Assembly (NCBI RefSeq): GCF_900143005.1
Contig: NZ_FRCS01000009.1
Coordinates: forward strand, 62,001-126,000
Reading direction: 5' to 3'
DNA: 64,000 nucleotides
Source: Cryptosporangium aurantiacum
Lineage (GTDB): Bacteria; Actinomycetota; Actinomycetes; Mycobacteriales; Cryptosporangiaceae
The notes beneath the pieces were generated by a model. It did no database searches. It worked only from the letters and a program-made list of their open reading frames with translations, and had not been told where the DNA came from. A program made the translations under genes and the position numbers. Shown here one piece after another: positions 5,580 through 19,190 of the stretch; positions within the stretch are counted from its first letter, which is position 1; each line of letters opens with the position of its first letter.

Positions 5580-6449
5580 GTGGCCGGAGCGGCACTGATC
5601 ATCCTCGCGGTCCTGATGCTCGGGTTAGGCCTGAGCCTGACGGTCGGCGACTTCCGTCGTGTCGGTCGATACCGGGCCAGCATCGCGGCGGCGCTGGTCT
5701 GCCAGCTCGTGCTGCTGCCGCTGGTCTGCTTCGGGATCGTCACCGCGCTGCAGCTGCCGCCGGTGTCCGCGATGGGCATGATGCTGATCGCCGCCGTGCC
5801 CGGCGGGCCGACGGCAGGCATCTACTCGCACCTGTTCGGCGGCGACGTGGCGTTCAACCTGACGCTGACCGCGATCAACTCGGTGCTCTCGGTCGTGACG
5901 CTGCCGATCGTCGTCGGGCTCTCGCTGCGGCACTTCCTCGGCAGTCGCGACGGCATCGGCCTGCAGTTCGGCGAGGTGCTGAAGGTCGTCCTGATCGTGC
6001 TGATCCCGATCGTGATCGGCATGGTCATCCGGGCCAGGGCCCCCGGGGTCGCGGCCCGCAGCGAGCGCGCCTACCGGATCATCGCCGGAAGCGTGCTGGC
6101 CGGCTTTGTCGTGTTCGGCGTGGTGAGCTACGCGGGGACGCTGGTGGACGCGGTCACGACCGTGGTGCCTGCCGCCCTCCTGTTCGGCGTCGCGAGCCTC
6201 GGCACCGGCTACCTGGCCGGTGTGCTGACACGCGCCGGTCACCGGGTCTCGATCGCGGCCTGCATGGAGATCGGCTTCCACAACGGCGCGATGGCCATCT
6301 CGATCGCGATCGGCGTGCTCGGCAGCCTGTCGATGGCCGTCCCGCCTGCCCTCTACGGCCTGGTGATCCTGGTGCTCGCCGGGGTCGTGGGCTTCTTCGT
6401 CAGCCGCGGCGGACGGCGTCCCGCCGCCAGAGAAAGGCGCGCCCGATGA
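5580..6449 (+). CDS. Bile acid:sodium symporter family (BASS/SLC10-like) carrier
   Basis: A 289-residue integral membrane protein with eight to ten hydrophobic helices. It has the Gly- and Pro-rich VPGGPTAGIYSHL segment (about 78-90) and the GFHNGAMAISIAIG segment (about 231-244) seen in the BASS family, which moves organic anions with sodium. GTG 5580 was chosen because the hydrophobic N-terminus starts there and a GGAAGAGG ribosome site lies 6-7 bases upstream. The stop overlaps the sulfatase start by 4 bases (ATGA), so both are translated together. The natural inference is import of a sulfated amphipathic substrate, perhaps a steroid or bile-type sulfate. The TetR operator upstream should control it. 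Confidence 0.82.
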   Translation: MAGAALIILAVLMLGLGLSLTVGDFRRVGRYRASIAAALVCQLVLLPLVCFGIVTALQLPPVSAMGMMLIAAVPGGPTAGIYSHLFGGDVAFNLTLTAINSVLSVVTLPIVVGLSLRHFLGSRDGIGLQFGEVLKVVLIVLIPIVIGMVIRARAPGVAARSERAYRIIAGSVLAGFVVFGVVSYAGTLVDAVTTVVPAALLFGVASLGTGYLAGVLTRAGHRVSIAACMEIGFHNGAMAISIAIGVLGSLSMAVPPALYGLVILVLAGVVGFFVSRGGRRPAARERRAR

Positions 6450-8689
6450 CCTCCGAACCGATTTTCCGCCGGGCGGAAAGGCCGCCGGACGGCGCGCCGA
6501 ACATCGTCGCGATCGTCCTCGACGACACCGGCTTCGCCCAGCTCGGGTGCTTCGGCTCGGACCTCGCGACGCCGAACATCGACCGGCTCGCCGCCGCCGG
6601 GCTGCGGTACAACAGCTTCCACGTCACCGCGATGTGTTCGCCGACGCGCGCGTCGTTCCTCACCGGACGCAACCACCACGCGATCGGCATGGGGTTCGTG
6701 GCCGACCTGCCGCTGGACCACCACGGATACACCGCGCGCATCCCGCGGTCGGCGGCGACGCTGCCCCGCGTGCTGCGTGACCACGGTTATTCGACGCTCG
6801 CGGTCGGCAAGTGGCACCTGGTGCCGCGGTTCGAACGCTCCGCGGCCGGGCCGTTCACGCACTGGCCGCTGGGCCAGGGCTTCGAGCGGTACTACGGCTT
6901 CCTCAACGGCGACGCCAACCACTACGCGCCGACGCTGGTGCGCGACAACCACTACGTCGACCCGCCCGCGACGCCCGAGGAGGGGTACCACCTCACCGAG
7001 GACCTCACCGACCAGGCCATTCGTTACCTGCAGGACCAGCAGTACGCCGCGCCGGGCAAGCCGTTCTTCCTCTACTTCGCGCTCGGCGCCGCGCACTCAC
7101 CGCACCACGTCGCACGGGAGTGGGTAGAGCCCTACCGCGGCCGGTTCGACCGGGGCTGGGACGCCTGGCGGGACGACGTGTTCGCGCGACAGCTCCAATC
7201 CGGCCTGATACCGGCGGACACCGAGCTGACCCCGCGTCCGGACTGGGTGCCCGCCTGGGACAGCCTGGACGACGACGCGCGCCGCATGTACGCGCGGCAG
7301 CAGGAGGTCTTCGCCGGGTTCCTCACCCACGCCGACGCCCAGATCGGCCGGTTGCTCGACCACCTGGACGAGACCGGCCAGGCCGACAACACGATCGTCC
7401 TGCTGTTCTCCGACAACGGTGCGAGCGGTGAGGGCAGCGTCGACGGCAGCGTCAACGAGCACCGGTTCACCGCGGGGATCCCGGAGTCGCTCGCCGACAA
7501 CCTCGAGCACTACGACGACTGGGGCGGGCCGGAGACCTACAACCACTACTCGTGGGGCTGGGCGTGGGCGGGAAACACCCCGTTCCGGCTCTGGAAGCGA
7601 TACACGTGGCTGGGCGGGACCCGGGTGCCGCTGGTGGTCCGCTGGCCCGCGGAAACCGCCGCGACCGGCGGTGTGCGCACGTCGTTCGCGCACGTCGTCG
7701 ATCTGTTCCCGACGTTGTTGGACGCGGTGGGGATCGACGCGCCGGACGTCGTCGACGGGATCGAACAGCAACCGATCGACGGCGCGAGCCTCCGCGCGGG
7801 TTTCACCGATCCGGACGCCCCGGCGCCACGCGACACCCAGTACTTCGAGATGCTCGGGTCCCGCTCGATCATCCACGGCACGTGGAAGGCGACCACCGAC
7901 CACGTCGCCCGCGGCATCGTCGACGAAGAGAAGCTGATGACCGGCAGCCGCACGTTCGCCGAGGACCGCTGGTCGCTGTTCGACCTCGCACACGACTACG
8001 CCGAGGCGCGTGACCTGGCCGCCCAGCACCCCGGCACGATCGCCGAACTCGAACGGCTCTGGGACGCCGAAGCCGAACGGAACCACGTACTGCCGCTGTA
8101 CGACAGCCTCACCGACCGGATCGCGCACCTGATCTTCCCGGTCTGGCCGGCCGGGCCCGAGCGTACGTACCGGCCGGGGGCCTCGCCGATCTGCGACGAG
8201 TCGCTGCCGCTGCTGATGGGCGGCTTCCGGATCTCCGCCGACGCCGAGGCCGGTGACGACGCCGACGGTGCCCTGCTCGCGCTCGGCGACCGGCACGGCG
8301 GCTTCGCGCTCTACGTCGCCGACGAGCACCTCACGTTCACGTACTCGCGAGCGGGTGAAATGCTCGAAGTCCGCGCCGACCGGCCGGTCCCGTCCGGCGC
8401 GCACACGTTCGCGGTGACCTACGCCCCGGGCGCGAACGGCGGCCAGTTCGTGCTGTTCCACGACGACACGATGGTGGGGAGCACCGGCTTCGCCGGTGGA
8501 CTGCCGCCCGCGGTGCAGCACGGTGGGGCGGGTTTACGTCTCGGTTTCGACGCCGGCCTGCCGGTATCCGGACGCTACCGAGTGCCGCACCGCTGGAACG
8601 GCGAGCTGTTCGCGGTGCGCATCCAGACGCCGCCCGCCGTGCGGCTCGACCCCGTCGCCGAACTCCGCACCGCACTTCATGCTGACTAA
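6446..8689 (+). CDS. Type I (formylglycine) sulfatase, arylsulfatase-like
   Basis: A 747-residue sulfatase of the alkaline-phosphatase superfamily that hydrolyses sulfate esters. The metal site starts with LDDTGF (Asp26, Asp27). The signature CSPTRAS has Cys64 as the residue to be turned into formylglycine, followed by LTGRN. Further ligands are in VGKWHL and FSDNGAS. About 200 C-terminal residues form a beta-rich region typical of long actinobacterial arylsulfatases. There is no signal peptide, so it probably acts in the cytoplasm on substrate imported by the overlapping carrier. The stop overlaps the stop of the facing M20 gene by 4 bases. A formylglycine-generating enzyme is needed and is not in the window. 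Confidence 0.93.
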   Translation: MTSEPIFRRAERPPDGAPNIVAIVLDDTGFAQLGCFGSDLATPNIDRLAAAGLRYNSFHVTAMCSPTRASFLTGRNHHAIGMGFVADLPLDHHGYTARIPRSAATLPRVLRDHGYSTLAVGKWHLVPRFERSAAGPFTHWPLGQGFERYYGFLNGDANHYAPTLVRDNHYVDPPATPEEGYHLTEDLTDQAIRYLQDQQYAAPGKPFFLYFALGAAHSPHHVAREWVEPYRGRFDRGWDAWRDDVFARQLQSGLIPADTELTPRPDWVPAWDSLDDDARRMYARQQEVFAGFLTHADAQIGRLLDHLDETGQADNTIVLLFSDNGASGEGSVDGSVNEHRFTAGIPESLADNLEHYDDWGGPETYNHYSWGWAWAGNTPFRLWKRYTWLGGTRVPLVVRWPAETAATGGVRTSFAHVVDLFPTLLDAVGIDAPDVVDGIEQQPIDGASLRAGFTDPDAPAPRDTQYFEMLGSRSIIHGTWKATTDHVARGIVDEEKLMTGSRTFAEDRWSLFDLAHDYAEARDLAAQHPGTIAELERLWDAEAERNHVLPLYDSLTDRIAHLIFPVWPAGPERTYRPGASPICDESLPLLMGGFRISADAEAGDDADGALLALGDRHGGFALYVADEHLTFTYSRAGEMLEVRADRPVPSGAHTFAVTYAPGANGGQFVLFHDDTMVGSTGFAGGLPPAVQHGGAGLRLGFDAGLPVSGRYRVPHRWNGELFAVRIQTPPAVRLDPVAELRTALHAD

Positions 8690-9876
8690 CCGGCCAGGCT
8701 CGCCCCGGCCAGGTAGCCCGCCAGCAGCGCCGACGCGACCTGCCCGACCACCTCGTCGCCGGGCAGGTAGCGGGCGTCGTGCAGCATCGGCCCGCCGGGG
8801 CCCTCCCCGGTGCCGACGAAGTGCATGAGGATCGGCACCTGGGCGCCGTAGGTGGCGAAGTCGTCCGAGCCGCAGGACGCGAAGCTCGCGGTCGGCACCC
8901 CGAACGACGTCAGCCACTCGCGGGACGCCGCGGCCAGCGTGGCGTCGTTGACCAGCGCCGGTTCGCCCCGCCGGACCCGGTACTCGCCGGTGCACCCGGC
9001 GGCCTCGGCGATTCCGGCGACGGTACGCGCGAGCCGCTCGTGCACCCGCACCCGGTCCTGCTCGCGCATCGCCCGCACGGTGCCCGACGCGCGGGCGGTG
9101 TCCGGCAGGATGTTCGGCGCGTTCGAACCCTCGATCTGCGGCACCGTGACCACCACCGGGTGCAGCGGGCTCGTCGCGGAGCGCGCGGCCTCGGGCAGCG
9201 CGAGCACCGCCCGGCACAGCGGGGGCACCGGATCCGCGGCCAGGTGCGGGTACGCGCCGTGACCTCCGCGGCCGGTCATCACGATGTCCACTTCGTCCAC
9301 CGACGCGTTGACCGGCCCGGCGTCCGCCGTGACGCACCCGGCGGCCACCAGCGGCTGTACGTGCGCGGCGATCAGCGCCCGGACGTGGTGGTCGAGCAAC
9401 CGTCCCGAGTCCACCACGTCGGCGGCGCCGGTGGGGCCGACCTCCTCCCGCGGCTGCAGCAGCGCGACCAGCCCGACCGGCAGCTCCACCCGACGGGCCG
9501 CGCGCACCACCGCAACCAGTGCGGCCAGGTGCACGTCGTGCCCGCAGGCGTGCATCGCTCCGTTCGGCGACGCGAACGGCGCCCCGGTGAGCTCGGCGAG
9601 CGGCAGCGCGTCGAGTTCCGCGCGCAGCCCGACGGCCGGGCCCGGCGGGCCCAGCCGCAGCAACCGGCCGGTGCCCGCGATCGGCTCCGCGTGGAGACCG
9701 ATCGCGTCGACGACGCGCTTCGCGGTCGGCTCCTCCTCGCCGGAGACGTAGGGGGACGCGTGCAACTCGTGCCGCAGCGCGACCGCGTGCGGCAGCTCGG
9801 CGTCCAGCGCGGTCCGCCACGCCGCCGCGAGTGCGTTCAACGGGTCTGACGCCTCCACCGTGTCCGGGGCCTTCAC
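8686..9876 (-). CDS. M20-family amidohydrolase (hippurate/N-acyl amino acid type)
   Basis: A 396-residue metal-dependent amidase. It has HACGHDVHLAAL (metal ligands and catalytic region), a following EEVGPTGA segment, and the dimerisation-domain motif TGRGGHGAYPHLAADP. These enzymes remove the acyl group from N-acyl amino acids or similar amides. The frame is open upstream, but the natural start is GTG 9876, overlapping the stop of the preceding amidohydrolase as GTGA. It is the last gene of the operon 15103-8686. With a glutamine-synthetase-like ligase and a FluG-type amidohydrolase beside it, it may cleave a gamma-glutamyl or other amide intermediate; that role is inferred. Confidence 0.9.
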   Translation of the reverse strand: MKAPDTVEASDPLNALAAAWRTALDAELPHAVALRHELHASPYVSGEEEPTAKRVVDAIGLHAEPIAGTGRLLRLGPPGPAVGLRAELDALPLAELTGAPFASPNGAMHACGHDVHLAALVAVVRAARRVELPVGLVALLQPREEVGPTGAADVVDSGRLLDHHVRALIAAHVQPLVAAGCVTADAGPVNASVDEVDIVMTGRGGHGAYPHLAADPVPPLCRAVLALPEAARSATSPLHPVVVTVPQIEGSNAPNILPDTARASGTVRAMREQDRVRVHERLARTVAGIAEAAGCTGEYRVRRGEPALVNDATLAAASREWLTSFGVPTASFASCGSDDFATYGAQVPILMHFVGTGEGPGGPMLHDARYLPGDEVVGQVASALLAGYLAGASLAG

Positions 9877-10982
9877 CGGGCGTAGACGCGTTCGGCGTTG
9901 CCGTGCGCCACCAGGTGGCCGATCCGTTCGGCGTCCGCGGCTGCCCACTCGCCGCTCTCGACCCGGTCGCGGAGCAGCGCGGCCAGCGCCACCCGGAACG
10001 CGTGCGCGCCCAGCACGTACAGCTCCGGTGCGCCGTACGCGTCCGACGAGTACAGCAGCCGGGTGAACGGCGTGACCTCGGCGACCTCGGCCAGCACCTC
10101 GACGCTGCGGCGGGGCCCGACGTAGTGCAGCACCGACCCGACGTCCACCTGGACGTTCGGATACACGCACGCCAGATAGGACGCCTGCCGGTGCCACGGC
10201 CAGCAGTGCAGCAGCATCACCGGGACGCGGTGCCGGCGGATCCAGTCGGTCAGCAGCGTCGGGTCGACGTCGGTCATCCGGATGTCGCTGTCACCGAAGC
10301 CGACGTGGAACTGAATGGGCAGCCCGAGCCCGAGCGCCGCCTCCAGCGTCAGCCGTTGCAGCACCGGATCGGCCAGGCGCGTACCACCGGTCCCCAGCCA
10401 CCGGGCGGCGGCCGTGGTCACCTCGGCGTCGGTCGGGGGCGCCGGATCGAGCCGGAACCCGGTGCGGTAGGCGGCGACCGACTTGACCCCGGCGGCCCCG
10501 GTCTCGGCCACCGTGGCGGCGAGGCGCGACGCGAACGCCTCGCCGAACTCGTCCGGTTCGACGCCGTCGGCGGCCAGCGCTTCGGCGACCGACTCCAGCC
10601 GGACGATGTGGTCGGCGGGGCTGCCGGTCAGCGCGGTGATCTGCTCGGGCGTCGTCAGGCCGGACGGGTTGTGGCCGGTGTCCACGAGGAACCGCGCGGT
10701 CCCGGTGGCGGCCAGGAAGCGCCGGTTGACCTCAGCGGTGCCCAACTCGGCGCGGCGGGCCAGGTAGTCCTCGGGCGACGCGTGCGGCGGGAGGTCCAGC
10801 AGCGGTGCGCAGTGGCGCCGGATCGCCAGCCCGATCGGCGTGTCGAAGTTGGTCTCGCCCGCCGGTGGGGCGCCGCCCTCGCTGATCAGCGCCTCGACGC
10901 CCGCGCGGTCCTGTTCCGCGGTGACGACCCCGTGACAGTGGTGGTCGACCAGAGGAAACTCCGTGGTGCTCAATACACCCAC
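9873..10982 (-). CDS. Amidohydrolase, FluG N-terminal domain type
   Basis: A 369-residue TIM-barrel metal-dependent hydrolase of amidohydrolase family 2. HHCHG near residue 15 gives first-strand metal ligands, IQFHVGFGDSD and LLHCWPWHRQ give further His, and LLYSSDAYG holds the late Asp. Fungal FluG fuses such a domain to a glutamine synthetase domain. Here the two are separate but overlapping genes (13 bases shared), a well-known arrangement in actinobacteria. The GTG start at 10982 lies within the end of the ligase gene; a TTG a few codons later is an alternative. Substrate unknown; it may hydrolyse a glutamylated amine made by the neighbour. Confidence 0.82.
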   Translation of the reverse strand: MGVLSTTEFPLVDHHCHGVVTAEQDRAGVEALISEGGAPPAGETNFDTPIGLAIRRHCAPLLDLPPHASPEDYLARRAELGTAEVNRRFLAATGTARFLVDTGHNPSGLTTPEQITALTGSPADHIVRLESVAEALAADGVEPDEFGEAFASRLAATVAETGAAGVKSVAAYRTGFRLDPAPPTDAEVTTAAARWLGTGGTRLADPVLQRLTLEAALGLGLPIQFHVGFGDSDIRMTDVDPTLLTDWIRRHRVPVMLLHCWPWHRQASYLACVYPNVQVDVGSVLHYVGPRRSVEVLAEVAEVTPFTRLLYSSDAYGAPELYVLGAHAFRVALAALLRDRVESGEWAAADAERIGHLVAHGNAERVYAR

Positions 10983-12361
10983 CGATACGCTTCGGCGACG
11001 ACCTCGGGTGGCCGCTTCTCCATCCGGGCGATCTCACCGCGCCGCACACCGGCGATCGCGTCGACGAGGTACTCACCCCACGCCTTCGCCGGCAACGGGC
11101 TCGCGGTGAACTCCGCCAGCGCGTCGTCCAGCGTCGTCGGGAGCCGGCGAATGCCGCGGGCCGCGAGCTCGTCGGCGGAGAACCGGGACGGGTCGCCGGT
11201 GATCTCCTCCGGGAGCCGCACCCCGCGATCCAGGCCGTCCAGGCCCGCGGCGAGCAGGCCGGACAGCGCCAGGTACGGGTTGGCCGCCAGGTCGATGGCC
11301 TTGACCTCCAGGTTGGCCGCGCTCTGCCGGGCGCCGGCCGTACCGGTCACCACCCGCAGCGCGGCTTCGCGCGTCTCGTGGCCCCAGCAGGCATACACAC
11401 CGGCCCAGTGCGACGGCTGCATCCGCAGGTAGCTGGCCGGGCTGGGCGTGTTCACCGCGGCTAGCGCCGGAAGCGCGTCGAGGATGCCCGCGGTGATCGC
11501 CTCGGCCTCGGGCGTCAACCCGTACCGGCCGGTGCCGGTCCCGTGCAGGTTGACGTCGTCCCGCCAGGCCGACAGGTGCACGTGACCGCCGTTGCCCACG
11601 CCACCGGCCAGCACCGTGGGAGCGAACGAGATCCGCAGCCCGTGCCGCTGCGCCAGTGTCCGCAGCACGTGCCGGACCAGCACCGAGCGGTCCGCGGCGG
11701 CGACCGGGTCGGTCGCGCCGACCGAGATCTCGAACTGGCCGGGCGCGTACTCCGGGTGGATCTGGTCGACGCTGATGTGCAGTTGTTCGAGCGTCGCCAG
11801 CACGTCGCCGCAGAACTCGCTCAGCTCGGCCAGCCGGGTCAGCCCGTACGCCGGGCCCCGGCAGGCCGGCGCGAAGTCCGGCCAGGGGACGTCGTCCCGG
11901 CCGAGGACGAACTCGATCTCGACCGCGGCCCGGAACGTGAGGCCGCGCGCCACGGCGTCGGCGACCGTGCGCCGCAGCAGCGACCGGGAGCAGTTGACGT
12001 GCGGGACGCCGTCCTGGGTCAGGCGGTCGACCGGCGCCCACGCCCAGCCGGGCTGCGACGCCGGCACGGCAAGCTGGTCCAGGTCGGGGTAGAGGCGCAG
12101 GTCGCCGTCGGGGCCGCCCTGCTTGTCGGTGCCCACGATCATGTCGTCGGCGAGGAACAGGTCGAACACCGGTGACATGCCGACGCCCCACTGCACCGCG
12201 GCGTCCAGCTTGGTGACCGGCACGGCTTTCACCCGGGCGATGCCCGCGGTGTCGACGTAGGTCAGCGCGACGCCGTGCACGCCCTGCCCGGCGAGGCCGG
12301 CGGCCAGCTGTTGCGCGCGCGCCACCTCGCCGGGGCGGCCGCCGGGTGCCGGATCCGTCAT
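10970..12361 (-). CDS. Glutamine synthetase-like ligase (GlnA3/GlnA4 type)
   Basis: 463 residues with the full glutamine synthetase fold. EIEFVLG (about 147-153) and a later QFEIS segment provide metal ligands, and NGGHVHLSAWRD holds the conserved His. GS-like paralogues of Streptomyces gamma-glutamylate polyamines or ethanolamine instead of ammonia. The setting between an amino acid/amine permease and two amidohydrolases fits catabolism of an amine through a gamma-glutamyl intermediate rather than nitrogen assimilation. The adenylylation site of true GlnA was not recognised. ATG 12361 overlaps the permease stop as ATGA. Confidence 0.85.
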   Translation of the reverse strand: MTDPAPGGRPGEVARAQQLAAGLAGQGVHGVALTYVDTAGIARVKAVPVTKLDAAVQWGVGMSPVFDLFLADDMIVGTDKQGGPDGDLRLYPDLDQLAVPASQPGWAWAPVDRLTQDGVPHVNCSRSLLRRTVADAVARGLTFRAAVEIEFVLGRDDVPWPDFAPACRGPAYGLTRLAELSEFCGDVLATLEQLHISVDQIHPEYAPGQFEISVGATDPVAAADRSVLVRHVLRTLAQRHGLRISFAPTVLAGGVGNGGHVHLSAWRDDVNLHGTGTGRYGLTPEAEAITAGILDALPALAAVNTPSPASYLRMQPSHWAGVYACWGHETREAALRVVTGTAGARQSAANLEVKAIDLAANPYLALSGLLAAGLDGLDRGVRLPEEITGDPSRFSADELAARGIRRLPTTLDDALAEFTASPLPAKAWGEYLVDAIAGVRRGEIARMEKRPPEVVAEAYRWVY

Positions 12362-13827
12362 GCGCGCTCCTTCGCCGCGGTCAGGCCCTCGTCGGCGGTC
12401 AGCGCCTCACCGGCGCGGCGGGCCAGACGTGGTGCGGCCAGCACGAACACGAGCCCGGCGAGCAACCAGAGCGCGGCGACGACCGGTGCGATCAGGCTGC
12501 GGCCCTCGGGTAGCGGTATGACGTTGCGGTAGAGCGTGTACCCCAGCACGATCAACCCCCCGACCGGTACGACGACTTCCCAGGTGCGGACGCGGGGGTC
12601 TCGGTCGATGAACAGCAGACGGATGACGCCGACCGAAGCCAGGACATAGACCACCAGCAGCACCAAGGTACCGATCACTCCGGCCGCGACGAAGACCGAG
12701 AGCGACGTGTCGTCGGTGCCGGTGCGGTAGACCAGCCACAGCAGCACCTCGATCACCGCCGCCGCGACCGCGACGCCGATCGCCGCGCCGACCGGGGTGC
12801 GCTTGGTGGGGGAGACCCTGGCCAGCGGCGCCGGGGCGATCCCGTCCCTGGCCATCGCGTAGAGCAGCCGCGACGCGCCGACCGAACAGGCGAGCGCGCA
12901 GCCGAACGCGCTGATCGCCGCGCCCAGGCTGATCAGGTCGCCCAGCCAGGCGCCGACGTACTGCGTGCCGAGGTCACCGAAGAGCGAGCCGGAGTTCGCG
13001 AACGCGTCCAAGCCCGCCGCGTCGGTGCCGAACCCCATCACCTCGACCCAGGTGACGAAGACGAAGTAGAGCCCGCCGAAGATCGCGGTGCCGAGGATCG
13101 CGCGGGGGATGTCGCGGCGGGGGTGGCGCGTCTCCTCGCCGAGCGTCGCCGCGGCTTCGAAGCCCGCGAACGACAAGAACCCGAAGACGACGCCGAGGAA
13201 CAGGGCGCTGGTCGCGGTCCCGTCCGGCACCGTGAACGGCGAGAACGTGACGCTCTGGCCGCCGGGCGCGTCGTCGCCGAGGAGCTTGACCAGGATGACG
13301 ACCGCGACGATCAGGATCAGCGCGACGGTCGCGGCCTCGACCACCAGCAGGACGCGGGTGCCGAGCCGGATCGGGGACACCGTGAGCCAGAGAACGCCGA
13401 GCAGCACCAGCGCGGCCAGCGGGAGCACGATCCAGTCCGGCGGTGCGTCCCAGAGCCCGGTGCCGTCCAGGAACGCGACCAGGAACCGTGCGGACGCGGT
13501 GGACGTCACGACCGCGTAGAACAGGTACGTGCCGAGCAGCCCCCAGCCGGCCACGACGCCGGGGCGTGCCCCGAGCGTCGCGCCGACAAAGCCGTAGACC
13601 GATCCGGAGTGGTGAAACTTCTGGGTCAGGCGCACGAACGTGTACGCGACGAGCAGGACTCCGACGGTGGCCAGCGCGAACGTGAGCGGAACCGCGCGCC
13701 CGACGTTGCCCACCATGCCCTGTGGATTGATGTTCGCCGCCATCGACGGCGCCATGAGGGCGACGGAGATCCCGACGGCCTCCCAGATGCTCAGTTCACG
13801 GCCGAGCCGCGGCCCATCACCAGCCAC
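12358..13827 (-). CDS. APC-superfamily amino acid/amine permease
   Basis: 489 residues with about twelve to thirteen membrane helices. The start LGRELSIWEAVGISVALMAP carries the usual APC first helix. A conserved GFEAAATLGEE segment (after helix 6) is typical of amino acid and polyamine permeases. The frame continues 13 codons upstream, but GAGGAG lies 6 bases before GTG 13827, so that start was chosen. It is the second gene of the operon, 10 bases after the MFS gene and overlapping the GS-like gene. Likely imports the amine or amino acid that the downstream enzymes process. Confidence 0.9.
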   Translation of the reverse strand: MAGDGPRLGRELSIWEAVGISVALMAPSMAANINPQGMVGNVGRAVPLTFALATVGVLLVAYTFVRLTQKFHHSGSVYGFVGATLGARPGVVAGWGLLGTYLFYAVVTSTASARFLVAFLDGTGLWDAPPDWIVLPLAALVLLGVLWLTVSPIRLGTRVLLVVEAATVALILIVAVVILVKLLGDDAPGGQSVTFSPFTVPDGTATSALFLGVVFGFLSFAGFEAAATLGEETRHPRRDIPRAILGTAIFGGLYFVFVTWVEVMGFGTDAAGLDAFANSGSLFGDLGTQYVGAWLGDLISLGAAISAFGCALACSVGASRLLYAMARDGIAPAPLARVSPTKRTPVGAAIGVAVAAAVIEVLLWLVYRTGTDDTSLSVFVAAGVIGTLVLLVVYVLASVGVIRLLFIDRDPRVRTWEVVVPVGGLIVLGYTLYRNVIPLPEGRSLIAPVVAALWLLAGLVFVLAAPRLARRAGEALTADEGLTAAKERA

Positions 13828-13837
13828 GCGGTACTCC

Positions 13838-15103
13838 TCATTCGCCGGATGCCGCGTGGGTCCCACGCGGGCCTCGGATTGAGGTATCCCACTCCGCCAC
13901 CGATGTGGACAAGGGGGTGCGGGGAACTCGCTTCCCCGGCAGACGGAGACTTAACGGAACCAGAACTCCGGCGACACAGGCCGAGCCCGCCAGCGCCAGC
14001 AGCGGGTAGCCACCCGCTCCGACCAGGACGCCGGAGAGCGCACCCCCGACCGCGGCAGCCAGCCCCATCCCGACCTCGCCGGTCGCCTCCAGCCGCGGCC
14101 GGTCGTCCGGCGCGGCCCGGCCGACCAGCGCCGCGCTGCCGGCGACGACCGCGGCGCTCCACCCGAGGCCGAGCAGCGCGACCGCGAGCGTGAGCGCGAC
14201 CGGCGAGTCGGCACCCCAGGCGGCGATCGACGTCGCGGCCAGGAGCACGACACAGGCGGCGAGCGCGCCACCGCCGATCCCGGCCCGGTCGATCAGCCGG
14301 GCGCTCAGCGGCGCCGGGGCGAACATCGCGGCGATGTGGACGCTGACCACGACGCCGACCAGCCCGAGGCCGGCGCCGGCGTGATGGAGCTGTACGGGCG
14401 CCATCGTCATCGTCGCGACCATCACCAGGTTCGCGACGCTCAGCACGGCGACCGCGACGACCGGCTGTCCGCGCAGGCGGCTCCTCCGGGCGCGGCTGTT
14501 CCTGGCGAGCGCCATCGTGGCCTCGCGGTCCGGACGACGACGACCAGCGGCGACCGCCCACCCGACAGCGGCTCCGACGAAGACCACCGCCGCCGTTAGG
14601 AAGGTCGCGGAGAAGGCCGGGGCTCCGGCGAGCCCGGCGGTCGGTGCCAGGAGATTCGGCCCGATCACCGCGCCCACGGAGACCGCCGCGAGCACCGACG
14701 AGACCGCCCGCGCCGCGCTGCCGGTGCGGGCGAGGTCCACGGCGGCGTACCGGGCCAGCGCGACCGCGGCGGCACCGGCACCGGTCAGCAGGCTGCCGAT
14801 CAGCACCAGCGGAAGGCTCGCCAGCACGGCCGCGCCACTCAGTACGGCGCAGCCGACGGCCGCCGCCGCGGCGCCGAGCCCGAGCCCGGCCCCGCGTCCG
14901 CGGCGCCGTGACCAGGCGGCGATCAGCGGGGCCGATCCCGCGGCGCCGAGAACCTGAAGCGTCTGCGGCAGCCCGGCGGCGGCGACGCCGACGGTGAGCT
15001 CCCCGGCCAGCAGCGTCGCCGCCACGCCGGCCAGCGTCTGCGCCAGGCCTCCGAGTGCGGTGGCGAGCCACAGCGCGGGCAGTGACCACTCGTTTCGTGA
15101 CAT
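13838..15103 (-). CDS. MFS transporter
   Basis: 421 residues and about twelve hydrophobic helices split by a basic cytoplasmic loop near residues 195-215, the plan of major facilitator proteins. No substrate motif was recognised. It is the first gene of a five-gene minus-strand operon with a permease, a GS-like ligase and two amidases. It may export a product or toxic amine, or import a substrate. ATG 15103 was chosen; the divergent Lrp/AsnC gene starts 42-90 bases away, so both are probably controlled from the shared gap. Confidence 0.85.
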   Translation of the reverse strand: MSRNEWSLPALWLATALGGLAQTLAGVAATLLAGELTVGVAAAGLPQTLQVLGAAGSAPLIAAWSRRRGRGAGLGLGAAAAAVGCAVLSGAAVLASLPLVLIGSLLTGAGAAAVALARYAAVDLARTGSAARAVSSVLAAVSVGAVIGPNLLAPTAGLAGAPAFSATFLTAAVVFVGAAVGWAVAAGRRRPDREATMALARNSRARRSRLRGQPVVAVAVLSVANLVMVATMTMAPVQLHHAGAGLGLVGVVVSVHIAAMFAPAPLSARLIDRAGIGGGALAACVVLLAATSIAAWGADSPVALTLAVALLGLGWSAAVVAGSAALVGRAAPDDRPRLEATGEVGMGLAAAVGGALSGVLVGAGGYPLLALAGSACVAGVLVPLSLRLPGKRVPRTPLSTSVAEWDTSIRGPRGTHAASGE

Positions 15104-15193
15104 GCCGAGGACGCTAGGAAAGTCGCGGCCGGGGGAGCAGGGCCGATGACTATCGGACTCGCGCCGGGACCTCGCGTTCGCAAGGCTGTTCCG

Positions 15194-15709
15194 GTGAATT
15201 CCTTACGTTCGGAATATGCCCTGGACGACGTCGACTGGCGCATCCTGACCGAGCTCCAGCGGGACGGCAGGCTCTCGTTCAACGAGCTGGGCCGCCGGAT
15301 CCATCTCTCGGCTCCGTCCGTCGCCGACCGGGTCCGCAAGCTCGAGCAGGCCGGAGTGATCACCGGGTATCGCGCGGTAGTCGACCCGCAGCGTGCCGGC
15401 CACGGCATCACCGCGTTCGTCCAGCTGCGGTGTGCGCTCGGCAGCTGCCTGCTCCGCACCGGCCGGGCGGCCGACTACCCCGAGGTCGTCGAGATCCACA
15501 AGCTGTCCGGAGCGCACTGCACGATCCTCAAGCTGCGCGCGACGACGCTGGCGCACCTGGAGGGTGTGATCGAGCAACTCGGCAGGCACGGCGAGATGCA
15601 CACCCACGTCGTGCTGTCGACACAGTTCGACGAACCGACGGTGAGCCGACCGGGAACCGTCGACCGCCCGGTCACTCCGGCGACGGGCTGGACCAGCCCG
15701 GCCGACTGA
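15194..15709 (+). CDS. Lrp/AsnC-family transcriptional regulator
   Basis: 171 residues. The N-terminal AsnC helix-turn-helix covers about 10-60 (DDVDWRILTELQRDGRLS, then HLSAPSVADRVRKLEQAG). The C-terminal RAM ligand-binding domain runs to about residue 145, and the tail is poorly conserved. Such regulators respond to amino acids and often control the adjacent divergent operon, here the permease/GS-like/amidohydrolase set. GTG 15194 was preferred; an in-frame ATG at 15146 would add 16 residues without domain content. Confidence 0.88.
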   Translation: MNSLRSEYALDDVDWRILTELQRDGRLSFNELGRRIHLSAPSVADRVRKLEQAGVITGYRAVVDPQRAGHGITAFVQLRCALGSCLLRTGRAADYPEVVEIHKLSGAHCTILKLRATTLAHLEGVIEQLGRHGEMHTHVVLSTQFDEPTVSRPGTVDRPVTPATGWTSPAD

Positions 15710-15798: not shown

Positions 15799-16743
15799 AT
15801 GGGTGAAAACGCGGTGCGCGAGCAGGTGCGGCAGCGGTACGCCGCGGCTGCGCTGGCGGTGACGGCCCCCGGGGACGAAGGAGTCTCGTGTTGCGGGCCG
15901 ACCGCGGCGACGGAGATCGACGAGTCGTTCGGCGCCGGTCTCTACGGTGACGACGTCGAGGGCCTGCCCGCCGAAGCGGTCGCGGCGTCGCTCGGCTGCG
16001 GCAACCCGCTCGCGGTCGCCGATCTCGCACCCGGTGAGCGGGTGCTGGACCTGGGCTCCGGCGGAGGCATCGACGTGCTGCTCTCCGCCCGGCGAACCGG
16101 ACCGACCGGCAAGGCGTTCGGCCTGGACATGACCGACGAGATGCTCGCGCTGGCCCGCGCGAACGCGGCGAAGGCCGGCGCGACGAACGTCGAGTTCCTG
16201 AAGGGGCAGATCGAGGCGATCCCGCTCCCTGCCGACTCCATCGACGTCGTGATCTCCAACTGCGTGATCAACCTGTCGACCGACAAGGCCGCCGTGCTCG
16301 CGGAGATGTTCCGGGTGCTCGCGCCGGGCGGACGGATCGGGATCAGCGACGTCGTCGCCGAGGACCACCTGAGCCCGGCCGACCGCGCCGAACGCGGCAG
16401 TTACGTCGGGTGCATCGCCGGAGCGCTGTCCCGCGCCGAATACCTCGAGGGCCTGGCTGCGGCCGGCTTCACGGACGCCTCGGTGACGTTCACCCACGAG
16501 GCCGCGTCCGGCCTGCACGGCGCGATCATCCGCGCCACGAAGCCGATGGGGGGTGCGCCGACGGTCAGCGAGGCGACGGTCAGCGAGGCGACGGCCAGCG
16601 AGGCGCTCTCCGGCGTGGCCTCGGCGGGCGAGGAGGCGGCCGGCTGTTGCGGTCCGGCCGCCCAGGAGACCTGCTGTGCTCCGTCGGCGAAGAGCGAGTG
16701 CTGCGGCGACTCGCACGCGTCGGGCACCTGCGGCTGCCGGTGA
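15799..16743 (+). CDS. arsM: Arsenite S-adenosylmethionine methyltransferase ArsM, Cys-rich tail
   Basis: 314 residues. A Rossmann methyltransferase core has the SAM motif LDLGSGGGID (83-92). Three Cys at 67, 155 and 205 lie where ArsM enzymes bind As(III). It methylates arsenite, giving volatile or less toxic species. After residue 250 there is a pentapeptide repeat (TVSEA, TVSEA, TASEA), then a tail with eight Cys (283, 284, 292, 293, 301, 302, 311, 313), three as CC pairs, which may hold extra metalloid. Start ATG 15799 has GGAGG 8 bases upstream. ArsR-type dyads precede it. Confidence 0.93.
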   Translation: MGENAVREQVRQRYAAAALAVTAPGDEGVSCCGPTAATEIDESFGAGLYGDDVEGLPAEAVAASLGCGNPLAVADLAPGERVLDLGSGGGIDVLLSARRTGPTGKAFGLDMTDEMLALARANAAKAGATNVEFLKGQIEAIPLPADSIDVVISNCVINLSTDKAAVLAEMFRVLAPGGRIGISDVVAEDHLSPADRAERGSYVGCIAGALSRAEYLEGLAAAGFTDASVTFTHEAASGLHGAIIRATKPMGGAPTVSEATVSEATASEALSGVASAGEEAAGCCGPAAQETCCAPSAKSECCGDSHASGTCGCR

Positions 16744-16761
16744 TCCGGTCGTCCGACGCGG

Positions 16762-17235
16762 TCACCCGGTGGGCGGGCGCTCCTTGTGGCCGGCTTCCAG
16801 CAGCCTGATCATCTCCGCGATGCGCTGCGGTCGCTGTTCGGGACGGCGCTTGGTGGCGTCGATCCACCGCAGGTAGGCGCGCCGGTAGAACTGCGCGAGC
16901 GAATCGAAGAACGCCGCCGCCGCCGGGCTGGCGTCCAGCGCTGCGGCGACGTCGTCGGCGAGGTCGCCGCGCTGCGGTCCCTCGGGTTCGATCTCGACGG
17001 TCACGGCATCACCGACGCCCAGCCCACAGCCGCGTAGCCAGGCCGGTCCGAGCGTGAAGCCGAACGCGTCATCGCCGCGCTGCACGACCCCGCGGACAGG
17101 CATGCCGTTGACGGTGCCCCGAACGTGATGGCGGGGTTTGACGCCCCACACGCCGTCAGGATCGAACGGCACCGGGATGAGCACGTGCCCGCGCGGCGCA
17201 GCAGCCGCGGCGGTGGCGAACCGTCGACTCGTCAT
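16762..17235 (-). CDS. DUF1905/OmdA (YdeI-like) family protein
   Basis: 157 residues. The first half (about 20-80) is a small beta domain of the DUF1905 type. The C-terminal half is helical, with YRRAYLRWIDATKRRPEQR and a following IAEMIRLLE helix, the hallmark of YdeI/OmdA proteins. These are linked loosely to bacteriocin protection or antimicrobial tolerance; the biochemical role is unknown. ATG 17235 was chosen because the family domain starts soon after. It sits inside the arsenic island between arsM and arsC, but nothing ties it to arsenic. Confidence 0.8.
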   Translation of the reverse strand: MTSRRFATAAAAAPRGHVLIPVPFDPDGVWGVKPRHHVRGTVNGMPVRGVVQRGDDAFGFTLGPAWLRGCGLGVGDAVTVEIEPEGPQRGDLADDVAAALDASPAAAAFFDSLAQFYRRAYLRWIDATKRRPEQRPQRIAEMIRLLEAGHKERPPTG

Positions 17236-17274
17236 GACCCCATAGTGTCGGCCCACCGGCGCGGTACGAGGGAT

Positions 17275-17676
17275 TCACGCCGTCAACTCGGCGAGCAGCT
17301 TCTCGACCCGTCCGCGAATCTCGTCGCGGACCTGGCGGACGACCTCGATGCCCTGCCCGGCCGGGTCGGTGAGTTCCCAGTCCTCGTACCGCTTGCCGGG
17401 GAAGATCGGGCAGGTGTCGCCGCAGCCCATCGTGATCACGGCGTCGGAGGCCTGCACTGCTTCGGTGGTGAGGATCTTCGGCTTCTGGTCGGTGATGTCG
17501 ATGCCGACCTCGCGCATCGCCTCGACCGCGACCGGGTTGATCGACTCGGCCGGGGCCGATCCGGCGGAGCGCACCTCGACGGCGTCACCGGCGAGGTGGG
17601 TGACCCATCCGGCGGCCATCTGGGAACGGCCCGCGTTGTGGACGCAGACGAACAAGACGCTGGGCTTGCTGGACAT
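17275..17676 (-). CDS. arsC: Arsenate reductase ArsC, LMW-phosphatase type
   Basis: 133 residues, the usual length. The P-loop CVHNAGRS (Cys11 to Arg17) binds and attacks arsenate, and TDPAGQG carries the general-acid Asp. Cys85 and Cys89 lie in MGCGDTCP. This short form resembles corynebacterial enzymes that use mycothiol and mycoredoxin, rather than the thioredoxin-linked S. aureus form with wider Cys spacing. It reduces arsenate to arsenite for efflux or methylation. It follows the ArsR-ArsC fusion gene by 24 bases and is probably in the same operon. Confidence 0.93.
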   Translation of the reverse strand: MSSKPSVLFVCVHNAGRSQMAAGWVTHLAGDAVEVRSAGSAPAESINPVAVEAMREVGIDITDQKPKILTTEAVQASDAVITMGCGDTCPIFPGKRYEDWELTDPAGQGIEVVRQVRDEIRGRVEKLLAELTA

Positions 17677-17700
17677 CAGTGAGTTCCTCGGGTTGGTGGG

Positions 17701-18396
17701 TCAGGCGTGGGTCACGACGTGCGCGAGACGGTCGACGCGTGCGGTGAGCTGCTGGTAGGCGGCTTCGAAGGCGTCGTCGGTGTCGGCGGGCGCGGGGTCG
17801 GGGACCGACCAGTGCAGGTGACGCTCGGCGTCGGTGAGTTCCTCGTGGGCGTTGTCGCAGACGGCGACGAGCAAGTCGCCGGGGCGGACGACGTCGGCGA
17901 GCCGAGCCGTGGTGGTCGCGTCGAGGTGGAGTCCGTGGCGGCGGGCGGTCCGGAGAGCGCGGGAGTGGACGCGGGGCGCCGGGTGGGTTCCGGCGGAGGC
18001 GGCCGGGACGGGGCTGACCTGTGCCCACGCGGCGGCCGCCAGCTGGGATCGGGCGGAGTTGCGGGTGCAGACGAAGACCACTCGCGGCGCGTTCTCGGTG
18101 GGCAGCCCCGCCGCTAACGGGGTGGTCAGCCGTGCCGCAGCCGGATCGTCGAGGACGAGTTGGAGGTAGCTGCGCCGGCGGTCACCCTCCGACCGGCCGC
18201 GTCGGATCAACCCGGCGTCCTCCAGGACACGGAGGTGGTGAGCGAGGAGGTTGGTCGGGACGCCGAGCTGGGCGCCCAGCTCTCCCGGGGAGGCGTCGCT
18301 CAGCGCGAGCCGGTCGGCGATCGCCAGGCGGACGGGCTCGCCGAGGGCGGCGTGCATGGCCGCGCGTCGCCGGACGTCGTCGGGAACCGCAGCCAC
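17701..18396 (-). CDS. ArsR-type HTH fused to LMW-phosphatase/arsenate reductase domain
   Basis: 231 residues. Residues 1-85 form a winged helix-turn-helix of the ArsR class (LGAQLGVPTNLLAHHLRVLE). Residues 103-231 form a low-molecular-weight phosphatase/ArsC domain with CTRNSARS (Cys110 to Arg116). Fusions like this occur in actinobacteria and may join sensing to arsenate reduction. No paired metalloid Cys is evident in the HTH part, so the sensor may be the catalytic domain. The start GTG 18396 has GAGGTG 6 bases upstream. A 9-6-9 dyad lies in the short gap to the divergent aquaporin gene. Confidence 0.9.
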   Translation of the reverse strand: MAAVPDDVRRRAAMHAALGEPVRLAIADRLALSDASPGELGAQLGVPTNLLAHHLRVLEDAGLIRRGRSEGDRRRSYLQLVLDDPAAARLTTPLAAGLPTENAPRVVFVCTRNSARSQLAAAAWAQVSPVPAASAGTHPAPRVHSRALRTARRHGLHLDATTTARLADVVRPGDLLVAVCDNAHEELTDAERHLHWSVPDPAPADTDDAFEAAYQQLTARVDRLAHVVTHA

Positions 18397-18415
18397 CTGT
18401 TCACCTCAACCGATA

Positions 18416-18439
18416 TTGACTCAACGAATCTTGAGTCAA
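18416..18439. promoter_or_regulatory. ArsR-type operator between fusion regulator and aquaporin
   Basis: TTGACTCAA, 6-base spacer, TTGAGTCAA: a perfect 9-bp inverted repeat in the 56-base gap between two divergent starts. The position covers both promoters. It differs in sequence from the arsM dyads apart from the TTGA core. Confidence 0.85.
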
Positions 18440-18452
18440 GTATGGTGGCCCC

Positions 18453-19190
18453 ATGTCAGGAGTCAAGGGGGACGGGTCCCCGCCGCTGGTCCGGCCGCTG
18501 CTCGCCGAAGGGCTGGGTAGCGCGCTGCTCGCTGCGCTGGTGGTGGGCTCCGGCATCGCCGCACAGCAGCTCTCCGACGACGTCGGCCTGCAGTTGCTGG
18601 AGAACGCGGCAGCGACCGCGGCCGGGCTGTTCGCGATCATCCTGATGTTCGGGCCGGTCAGCGGCGCGCACTTCAACCCGGTCGTGTCGCTGGCCGACGC
18701 GGTCTTCGGCGGGCTGCCGTGGCGGACCGCCGCGGCCTACGTTCCGGTGCAGGCGCTCGGGTGTATCGCCGGGGCGGTGCTCGCGAACGCGATGTTCGCC
18801 GCACCCGCGGTGAGCATCAGCACGACCGAGCGGGCCACCGGCCCACACCTGCTCGCCGAGGTGGTCGCGACCGCCGGGCTGGTGCTGGTGATCTTCTCGC
18901 TGGCGCGGTCCGGCCGGGCGGCCACCGCTCCGGCCGCGGTGGCCGCCTACATCGGTGCCGCCTACTGGTTCACCTCATCCACCAGCTTCGCCAACCCTGC
19001 GATCACGATCGGCCGGATGTTCTCCGACACGTTCGCCGGGATCGCGCCGTCGTCCGCACCCGCGTTCGTCCTCGCGCAGCTGATCGGTGGCGCTCTCGGC
19101 GTGGTGCTGATCCGGGTGCTCTACCCGGCTCTCCGCTCCGAGCAGGCCGCCCGCGCGGTCCTGCCCGCCGACGCGTCCACCCCGCGCTGA
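18453..19190 (+). CDS. Aquaporin/MIP-family channel, arsenite-type
   Basis: 245 residues and six membrane helices with two half-helices: HFNPVVS (first motif NPV instead of NPA) and FANPAIT (second motif). MIP channels in ars operons, such as AqpS of Sinorhizobium meliloti, let arsenite leave the cell down its gradient after arsenate reduction. No ArsB or Acr3 pump is visible nearby, so this channel and ArsM would be the exits. ATG 18453 begins the protein; the shared dyad lies just upstream. ArsR follows 65 bases downstream on the same strand. Confidence 0.88.
   Translation: MSGVKGDGSPPLVRPLLAEGLGSALLAALVVGSGIAAQQLSDDVGLQLLENAAATAAGLFAIILMFGPVSGAHFNPVVSLADAVFGGLPWRTAAAYVPVQALGCIAGAVLANAMFAAPAVSISTTERATGPHLLAEVVATAGLVLVIFSLARSGRAATAPAAVAAYIGAAYWFTSSTSFANPAITIGRMFSDTFAGIAPSSAPAFVLAQLIGGALGVVLIRVLYPALRSEQAARAVLPADASTPR

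Follow-up and report, generated by a model that had tools for sequence, protein, structure and literature searches.

What amine might be handled by an operon in which a ligase resembling glutamine synthetase (GS-like) and a protein of the amidohydrolase superfamily (AHD) are encoded by separate, overlapping genes, and which of the genes around them belong to the same pathway? The question is raised by a 64,000-nucleotide stretch of Cryptosporangium aurantiacum DNA (contig NZ_FRCS01000009.1, positions 62,001 to 126,000, forward strand), to which we refer as the window, and in which an earlier note, made from the letters alone, had seen a five-gene operon for amine catabolism with a divergent regulator. 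Our answer, in which our confidence stands slightly above even, is that the operon probably encodes a gamma-glutamylation module of the GlnA3 type for diamines or polyamines. We infer the reactions of this pathway, one and all, from gene content, coupling, orthology, conserved residues and recurrence in relatives. All six genes are found where the earlier note had placed them:

8686-9876, minus strand: M20D-type amidohydrolase (M20), start GTG 9876
9873-10973, minus strand: Amidohydro_2 protein (AHD; PF04909), start TTG 10973 or GTG 10982
10970-12361, minus strand: GS-like ligase (PF00120)
12358-13827, minus strand: APC permease (AA_permease_2; PF13520, E 1.9e-34), probable start GTG 13827
13838-15103, minus strand: MFS transporter (PF07690)
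15146-15709, plus strand, divergent: Lrp/AsnC regulator (PF13404 and PF01037)

The order of transcription on the minus strand is MFS, APC permease, GS-like ligase, AHD and M20, and the last four genes are coupled by 4-base overlaps of stop and start codons (ATGA for APC/GS, TTGA for GS/AHD and GTGA for AHD/M20). The overlap of the GS and AHD genes is genuine, amounting to 4 bases when counted from TTG 10973 and to 13 bases from the alternative GTG 10982. GTG 13827 is the most likely start of the permease, since it is preceded by GAGGAG and is aligned with an ATG (MAGEGPKL) inside the Kineosporia open reading frame (ORF), and with this start the MFS and APC genes are separated by 10 bases and do not overlap.

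The ligase and its relatives

The identity of the ligase carries the argument. In a rapid maximum-likelihood phylogeny of 54 GS-like rows, the window protein belongs to a 12-member clade with streptomycete GlnA3 and Kineosporia ligases (SH-aLRT 97). A genome scan with one genome per species gave at least 567 confirmed stretches, and among the best 80 of these, three came from Kineosporia or a metagenome-assembled genome (MAG; 65% identity to the window ligase) and nearly all of the rest from Streptomyces (60-65%). The published primers for SCO6962 and SCO6960 match loci L054 and L056 (L and G numbers are our labels for loci and genomes) with 0-2 mismatches, those for SCO6962 on the GS gene and those for SCO6960 on a 178-aa gene downstream of AHD. 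The SCO6961 primers found no match in these two loci at the 0-2 mismatch limit; in seven loci tried, the forward primer matched AHD in L073, L076 and L088 and the reverse primer in L088. GS ORFs outside 330-620 aa (L094, L153, L155, L158, L198, L205 and one of L188) were left out, those of L094, L153 and L158 being put back into the tree from their match ranges, and four duplicate or near-duplicate rows were taken out of the residue alignment. As judged from its phylogenetic position, the window ligase is an orthologue of Streptomyces GlnA3 (SCO6962).

The ten metal-, glutamate- and ATP-binding residues given in PMC5403932 are all kept in the window ligase (E151, E153, E207, E214, N260, G261, H263, H265, R316 and R339 in the numbering of L054), the ammonia-site equivalents of D50 and Y179 are G63 and A169, as in GlnA3, and the closest solved structure is 4hpp (PA5508). 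Residues, tree and structural match together support the proposal of the earlier note that the protein belongs with the gamma-glutamyl amine ligases and is not an ammonia-using glutamine synthetase. The note had left the amine unnamed; because the ligase is the GlnA3 orthologue, polyamines or diamines are now the best guess. GlnA3Sc is a gamma-glutamylpolyamine synthetase encoded in a polyamine-induced operon, according to the accessible part of PMC5403932.

The ethanolamine-using type represented by GlnA4 was also considered for the window ligase and rejected. The glnA4 primers match a different paralogue (L197), which falls outside the window-GS/GlnA3 clade of the same tree, as do the ligases of L168 and L192, and the window ligase is not orthologous to SCO1613. 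The host's own L004 groups with the GlnA4-type L197 and with L199. Of the two reference enzymes named in the earlier note, GlnA3 and GlnA4, it is the former with which the window ligase sides.

The four-gene cluster and its two hydrolases

AHD hits occur in 86/298 genomes of the order set and in 120/394 genomes, a few of them weak or partial. From these we picked by hand 104 AHD loci outside the window genome, many of them near kin and some ended by contig ends. Per genome, only the best candidates were scored (six for AHD, M20 and MFS, and 11 for Lrp in the order set), and the absences reported here hold at that depth. The 104 loci gave 75 matches to the GS-like ligase, 34 to M20 and 30 to the APC permease. 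All four proteins are matched at 13 of the loci, among them L169, the permease match of which is a distant one (26%). Kineosporia L011 has the four genes side by side (identities of 71% for APC, 65% for GS, 78% for AHD and 62% for M20), and this recurrence, in Kineosporia and at the 13 loci, makes the four-gene cluster more than chance.

The sole strong sequence match of AHD in the PDB is 2qpx (LSEI_0440; E 1.8e-42), and its predicted model (mean pLDDT 88) fits the same structure with a Z of 38.7 over 354 residues, followed by 4i6v and uronate isomerases (Z 20.8-26.6) and by other amidohydrolases and phosphotriesterases (Z 16-17), the absence of a family from these fold searches excluding no family. 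Residues H15, H17, K167, H226, H259 and D314, counted from GTG 10982, are kept in 97-102 of 103 aligned rows, and we take this HxH/K/H/H/D set to be a complete metal site of the superfamily pattern. In a FastTree phylogeny of 106 rows, AHD groups with congener G003 and Kineosporia (4 rows, support 99) within a wider clade that includes SCO6961-like AHD (12 rows, support 99) and that matches the GS clade. AHD is thus predicted to be a TIM-barrel member of the amidohydrolase superfamily, of the SCO6961/LSEI_0440/FluG-N type. A modelled fold reveals no reaction, and the label "amidase" is not earned; the two different amidases of the earlier note are not supported, as nothing shows amide cleavage by AHD.

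The AHD match of congener G001 (L094:8366-9428) is broken across two reading frames near codon 309, by either a sequencing error or the decay of the gene, and was excluded from the AHD tree and the residue count; in the same locus, AHD and M20 are separated by a 397-aa gene resembling alpha/beta-hydrolases. In genus g93 of family f33, which we take for Streptomyces, genomes carry a second AHD paralogue that is 42-46% identical to the window AHD (L182, L183, L185 and L186), and the 15-kb stretch around it gave no match to the GS-like ligase.

The M20 protein scores 215.8 bits on TIGR01891, above the cut-off of 153.75, and its best solved match is 1ysj (YxeP; E 1.5e-48), as for enzymes of the HipO/YxeP/IAA-amino-acid hydrolase type. 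Residues C111, H113, E144, E145, H172 and H366 are invariant in 35/35 rows, and metal-binding roles are presumably held by ligands C, H, E, H and H among them. M20D enzymes hydrolyse N-acyl amino acids in which the carboxylate is free, and the window protein is a candidate gamma-glutamyl-amino-acid hydrolase. Counting the window genome, M20 (E <= 1e-60) occurs in 33/298 order-set genomes, and it is a true partner of AHD, as the two adjoin (within ~1.2 kb) in 30 of these 33, the match in G277 being a fragment. In one relative (L156), a YibE/F gene adjoins M20.

The pathway that we propose would begin with the APC permease, the best solved relatives of which are cationic amino-acid transporters and which probably takes up either the amine itself or a cationic amino acid from which decarboxylation would later yield the amine. 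By analogy with its assayed orthologue, the ligase would then use ATP to link glutamate to one amino group, a step that might detoxify the amine and would shield that end, while enzymes from other parts of the genome would oxidise the free amino end to a carboxylate. A hydrolase of the operon would finally free glutamate and an omega-amino acid such as gamma-aminobutyric acid (GABA) or 5-aminovalerate. Where M20 is present we would prefer it for this release, because the substrates of M20D enzymes are N-acyl amino acids with a free carboxylate, a description that gamma-glutamyl-GABA fits; AHD would carry out another step coupled to the ligase.

The roles of the two hydrolases might also be exchanged, with AHD freeing glutamate from the gamma-glutamyl acid and M20 serving a side route in which N-acyl amino acids or N-acetyl diamines are deacylated. 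We hold this to be quite possible, if short of an even prospect. AHD occurs more widely with GS (75/104 loci) than with M20 (34/104), its counterpart is fused to the ligase in FluG, M20 also matches a DoeB2-like model (166.6 bits, cut-off 550), and a review counts SCO6961 among the hydrolases of the step (PMC9397018, in the part accessible). Against such a role stand the nearest fold relatives of the AHD model beyond 2qpx, which are 4i6v and the uronate isomerases, and the accessible text of PMC6478659, where the activity of LSEI_0440 is described as unknown.

Recurrent neighbours, the amine and the Lrp-MFS pair

Of the 104 AHD loci, 11 also match an RpiR regulator, five match a class-III aminotransferase and three match an Orn/Lys/Arg-type decarboxylase (PF01276), and the recurrence of these neighbours is a hint that diamines might be the substrates. 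At all five of its loci, the aminotransferase abuts AHD, M20 or the permease on the same strand. The decarboxylase loci L167, L168 and L181 belong to families f8, f10 and f23, and at two of them the gene is on the same strand and abuts AHD or M20. L168 (G221) carries the ligase, permease, aminotransferase, AHD and decarboxylase on one strand (its AHD, hidden in the locus count by an overlapping decarboxylase hit, was seen in the genome search); L181 (G361) carries permease, AHD, M20 and decarboxylase on one strand, with RpiR and the ligase divergent; and in L167 (G067) the decarboxylase is convergent. AHD and the decarboxylase occur together in 51/298 order-set genomes (AHD being present in 86 and the decarboxylase in 80; odds ratio 9.2, uncorrected for kinship), and 2 pairs within 5 kb were observed there versus 0.13 expected on the assumption of 1.7 copies and 6.5 Mb (P ~0.008, a rough estimate).

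A scan of 20 hand-picked neighbour genes found the three decarboxylase genes, a single class-III aminotransferase and, here and there among the loci, MFS proteins (L164, L190), YibE/F, a short-chain dehydrogenase, an epoxide hydrolase, an FAD-binding protein, pyridoxal-phosphate enzymes (L163, L171), an ABC transporter and more; aldehyde dehydrogenase was not found among these 20, and NCBIfam named no substrate for the aminotransferase or the decarboxylase. Upstream of the APC gene in two congeners are a P450 gene and a gene for an S-adenosylmethionine-dependent methyltransferase, and in congener G001 a TIR-domain protein is encoded ~1.6 kb upstream of the permease (L094:2611-3978). In G538 (L268:2454-12765), a row of RpiR, AHD, M20 and aminotransferase is flanked, as judged by eye, by an apparent homocysteine methyltransferase and an ABC importer of the branched-chain-amino-acid type.

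Several observations weigh against a module for diamines or polyamines, or against the part assigned to M20 in it. The top NCBIfam model for the window ligase, gamma-glutamylputrescine synthetase (NF045547), gives 296.4 bits, under its equivalog cut-off of 650. Position 327 is A in the window ligase and T in L054 by alignment, which suggests that the amine pocket is not identical to that of GlnA3; the accessible parts of two Streptomyces papers disagree on this position (W in PMC5403932, T in PMC8998196), and for this reason we draw nothing from the identity of the residue. The window operon contains no oxidase or aldehyde dehydrogenase. The best NCBIfam model for the decarboxylase is the lysine decarboxylase LdcC, with a score far below cut-off. 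The ligases of the decarboxylase loci are 55% (L181, close clade), 37% (L168, sister clade) and 35% (L167, outside) identical to that of the window, and at the aminotransferase loci the ligase either reaches 37-38% identity or is not matched at all. The link to diamines thus appears to lean on distant ligases, L181 being the only close one among the decarboxylase loci, and our confidence has been lowered on this account. M20 occurs without AHD in three genomes of family f16 (G181, G224 and G031), where, apart from a 445-473-aa gene that lies downstream of M20 each time, no alternative partner was seen; and because 70/104 AHD loci, some of them ending at contig edges, have no M20 match, M20 would be dispensable for the general pathway.

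Some of these points would suit a gamma-glutamyl ligase for another amine, such as an aromatic or branched monoamine, ethanolamine or isopropylamine, on the products of which AHD and M20 would act. We think such a substrate somewhat unlikely. It would be consistent with the altered position 327, with the lack of a decarboxylase in the window operon and with the distance of most ligases beside which relatives carry one, and also with the preference of PA5508, the 4hpp protein, for catecholamines and other bulky amines rather than linear polyamines (PMC6478659 on Ladner et al. 2012, in its accessible part). However, the closer orthologue is GlnA3, a polyamine user, and the ethanolamine-type GlnA4 forms a separate clade, in which the host has a member of its own.

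A broader version of the diamine and polyamine reading can be put forward with low confidence. It envisages an actinobacterial unit of RpiR, APC permease, GlnA3-like ligase, class-III aminotransferase, AHD, M20 and sometimes an Orn/Lys/Arg decarboxylase, which would convert a cationic amino acid or diamine via gamma-glutamyl intermediates. M20 would replace PuuD, and AHD would catalyse a new, non-amidase reaction that might also explain the N-terminal half of FluG. We found no account of a module wider than GlnA3-AHD in the accessible open-licence literature, and the extra partner genes appear to be components of this pathway that have yet to be described. As partners in a compact four-gene operon and its relatives, M20, the aminotransferase, the diamine-type decarboxylase and RpiR suggest concrete substrates.

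The Lrp and MFS genes, which the earlier note had included in the system, are an independent divergent unit. An MFS homologue (E <= 1e-30) is divergent beside Lrp in 14 of the 18 genomes with an Lrp match of at least 57% identity (G096, G068, G035 and G016 have no adjoining MFS), and in 13 of these 14 the pair lies away from any AHD match; only in the window genome is it beside AHD. Among the congeners, G002 carries the pair but gave no AHD match, G001 carries pair and operon ~210 kb apart, and G003 carries the operon, with neither Lrp nor MFS matched. A homologue of the window MFS was found at 0/104 AHD loci, and the single Lrp match there has 35% identity and lies >6 kb away. Apart from a single match of 43%, all that the surroundings of the pair in G001 and G002 share with the window ORFs that were tried is a methyltransferase family, and this recurs in four of the five congener loci. 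The independence of the pair from AHD led us to reject Lrp and MFS as ancestral parts of the operon; in this genome, either the unit was placed immediately upstream of the operon or the operon was placed behind the unit. Given the 10 bases between MFS and APC, the operon may now share the promoter of the pair, with MFS perhaps co-transcribed.

A single system of five genes and Lrp, in which MFS, controlled by Lrp, would export a product or surplus polyamine, is therefore unlikely in our view, given the pair's separation from AHD elsewhere and the want of an MFS homologue at the AHD loci. The short gap would nevertheless make read-through likely, and other MFS-family proteins, not homologous at the threshold used, adjoin the module in L164 and L190. 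We keep an export role open because in Mycobacterium tuberculosis rv1878 (glnA3) follows the gene for the MFS pump Rv1877, and bacteria from which the pump is deleted are sensitive to spermine (PMC10956863, accessible part). Lrp and MFS are not to be assumed in a model of the pathway, and the gene list is corrected in this respect. A true glutamine synthetase using ammonia, which would have the PF00120 fold and the intact catalytic residues in its favor, is set aside as barely credible on the G and A at the D50 and Y179 positions and on the seven other PF00120 proteins of the host (eight in all in a 9.58-Mb genome of 44 contigs), of which we take the top scorer, L001, for the housekeeping enzyme.

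Outside these six genes, a 747-aa sulfatase gene (6446-8689) is convergent to M20, the ends overlapping by 4 bases; a sulfatase match occurs at just one of the 104 AHD loci (L255, 40%). On the other side, arsenic-type genes adjoin the operon at 15799-19190 and include an ArsM-like arsenite methyltransferase that scores above the NCBIfam cut-off, a low-molecular-weight-phosphatase-family protein, an aquaporin-family channel and an ArsR-type helix-turn-helix domain fused to a second low-molecular-weight-phosphatase-family domain.

Comparison with known systems

The logic of gamma-glutamylation, oxidation and hydrolysis is that of the Puu pathway of Escherichia coli, but the other genes of the window operon include, by Pfam, none of the PuuB, PuuC or PuuD kinds, as we take these kinds to be. 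The M. tuberculosis row Rv1877-Rv1878-Rv1879 resembles the window in its MFS pump, GlnA3-like ligase and next gene in the row (PMC10956863, accessible part). Genus g9 of family f8 has GS proteins of 37-39% and AHD proteins of 42-48% identity to those of the window. We take this genus for mycobacteria and Rv1879 for an amidohydrolase; in contrast to the window ligase, the ligases of genus g9 sit in a sister clade.

The earlier note was right that the separate, overlapping genes match the two halves of fungal FluG, the relatives being 4hpp (PA5508) and 2qpx (LSEI_0440). FluG is a single polypeptide with the amidohydrolase part first, whereas in the window there are two genes with the ligase first. 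PA5508 and LSEI_0440 replaced the FluG halves in Aspergillus nidulans, LSEI_0440 the N-terminal one (PMC6478659, accessible part). The amidohydrolase that accompanies GlnA3 is of interest because its kind also forms half of FluG, a protein that controls fungal sporulation.

As a novelty, the split pair does not stand, since the S. coelicolor operon glnA3 (SCO6962)-SCO6961-SCO6960 has the same arrangement of an orthologous ligase followed by an orthologous AHD; the literature already covers this pair, including its induction by polyamines and its resemblance to FluG, to go by the accessible parts of PMC5403932, PMC6478659 and PMC9397018. The window GS and AHD are 64% and 57% identical to the S. 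violaceorubidus copies in L054. The 64-kb window differs in having no SCO6960-like match, and also in its APC gene upstream and M20 gene downstream, whereas in the streptomycete loci compared neither adjoins GS-AHD; in ten of these, the M20 match reaches no more than 34-36% identity and lies on the opposite strand, 0.5 to 5 kb upstream. Kineosporia, with APC-GS-RpiR-AHD-M20 (L011 and the MAG locus L009), differs from the window in the RpiR/SIS regulator between GS and AHD, of which the window has no match, and resembles it in all four homologues, which occur in the same order and with identities of 62-78%.

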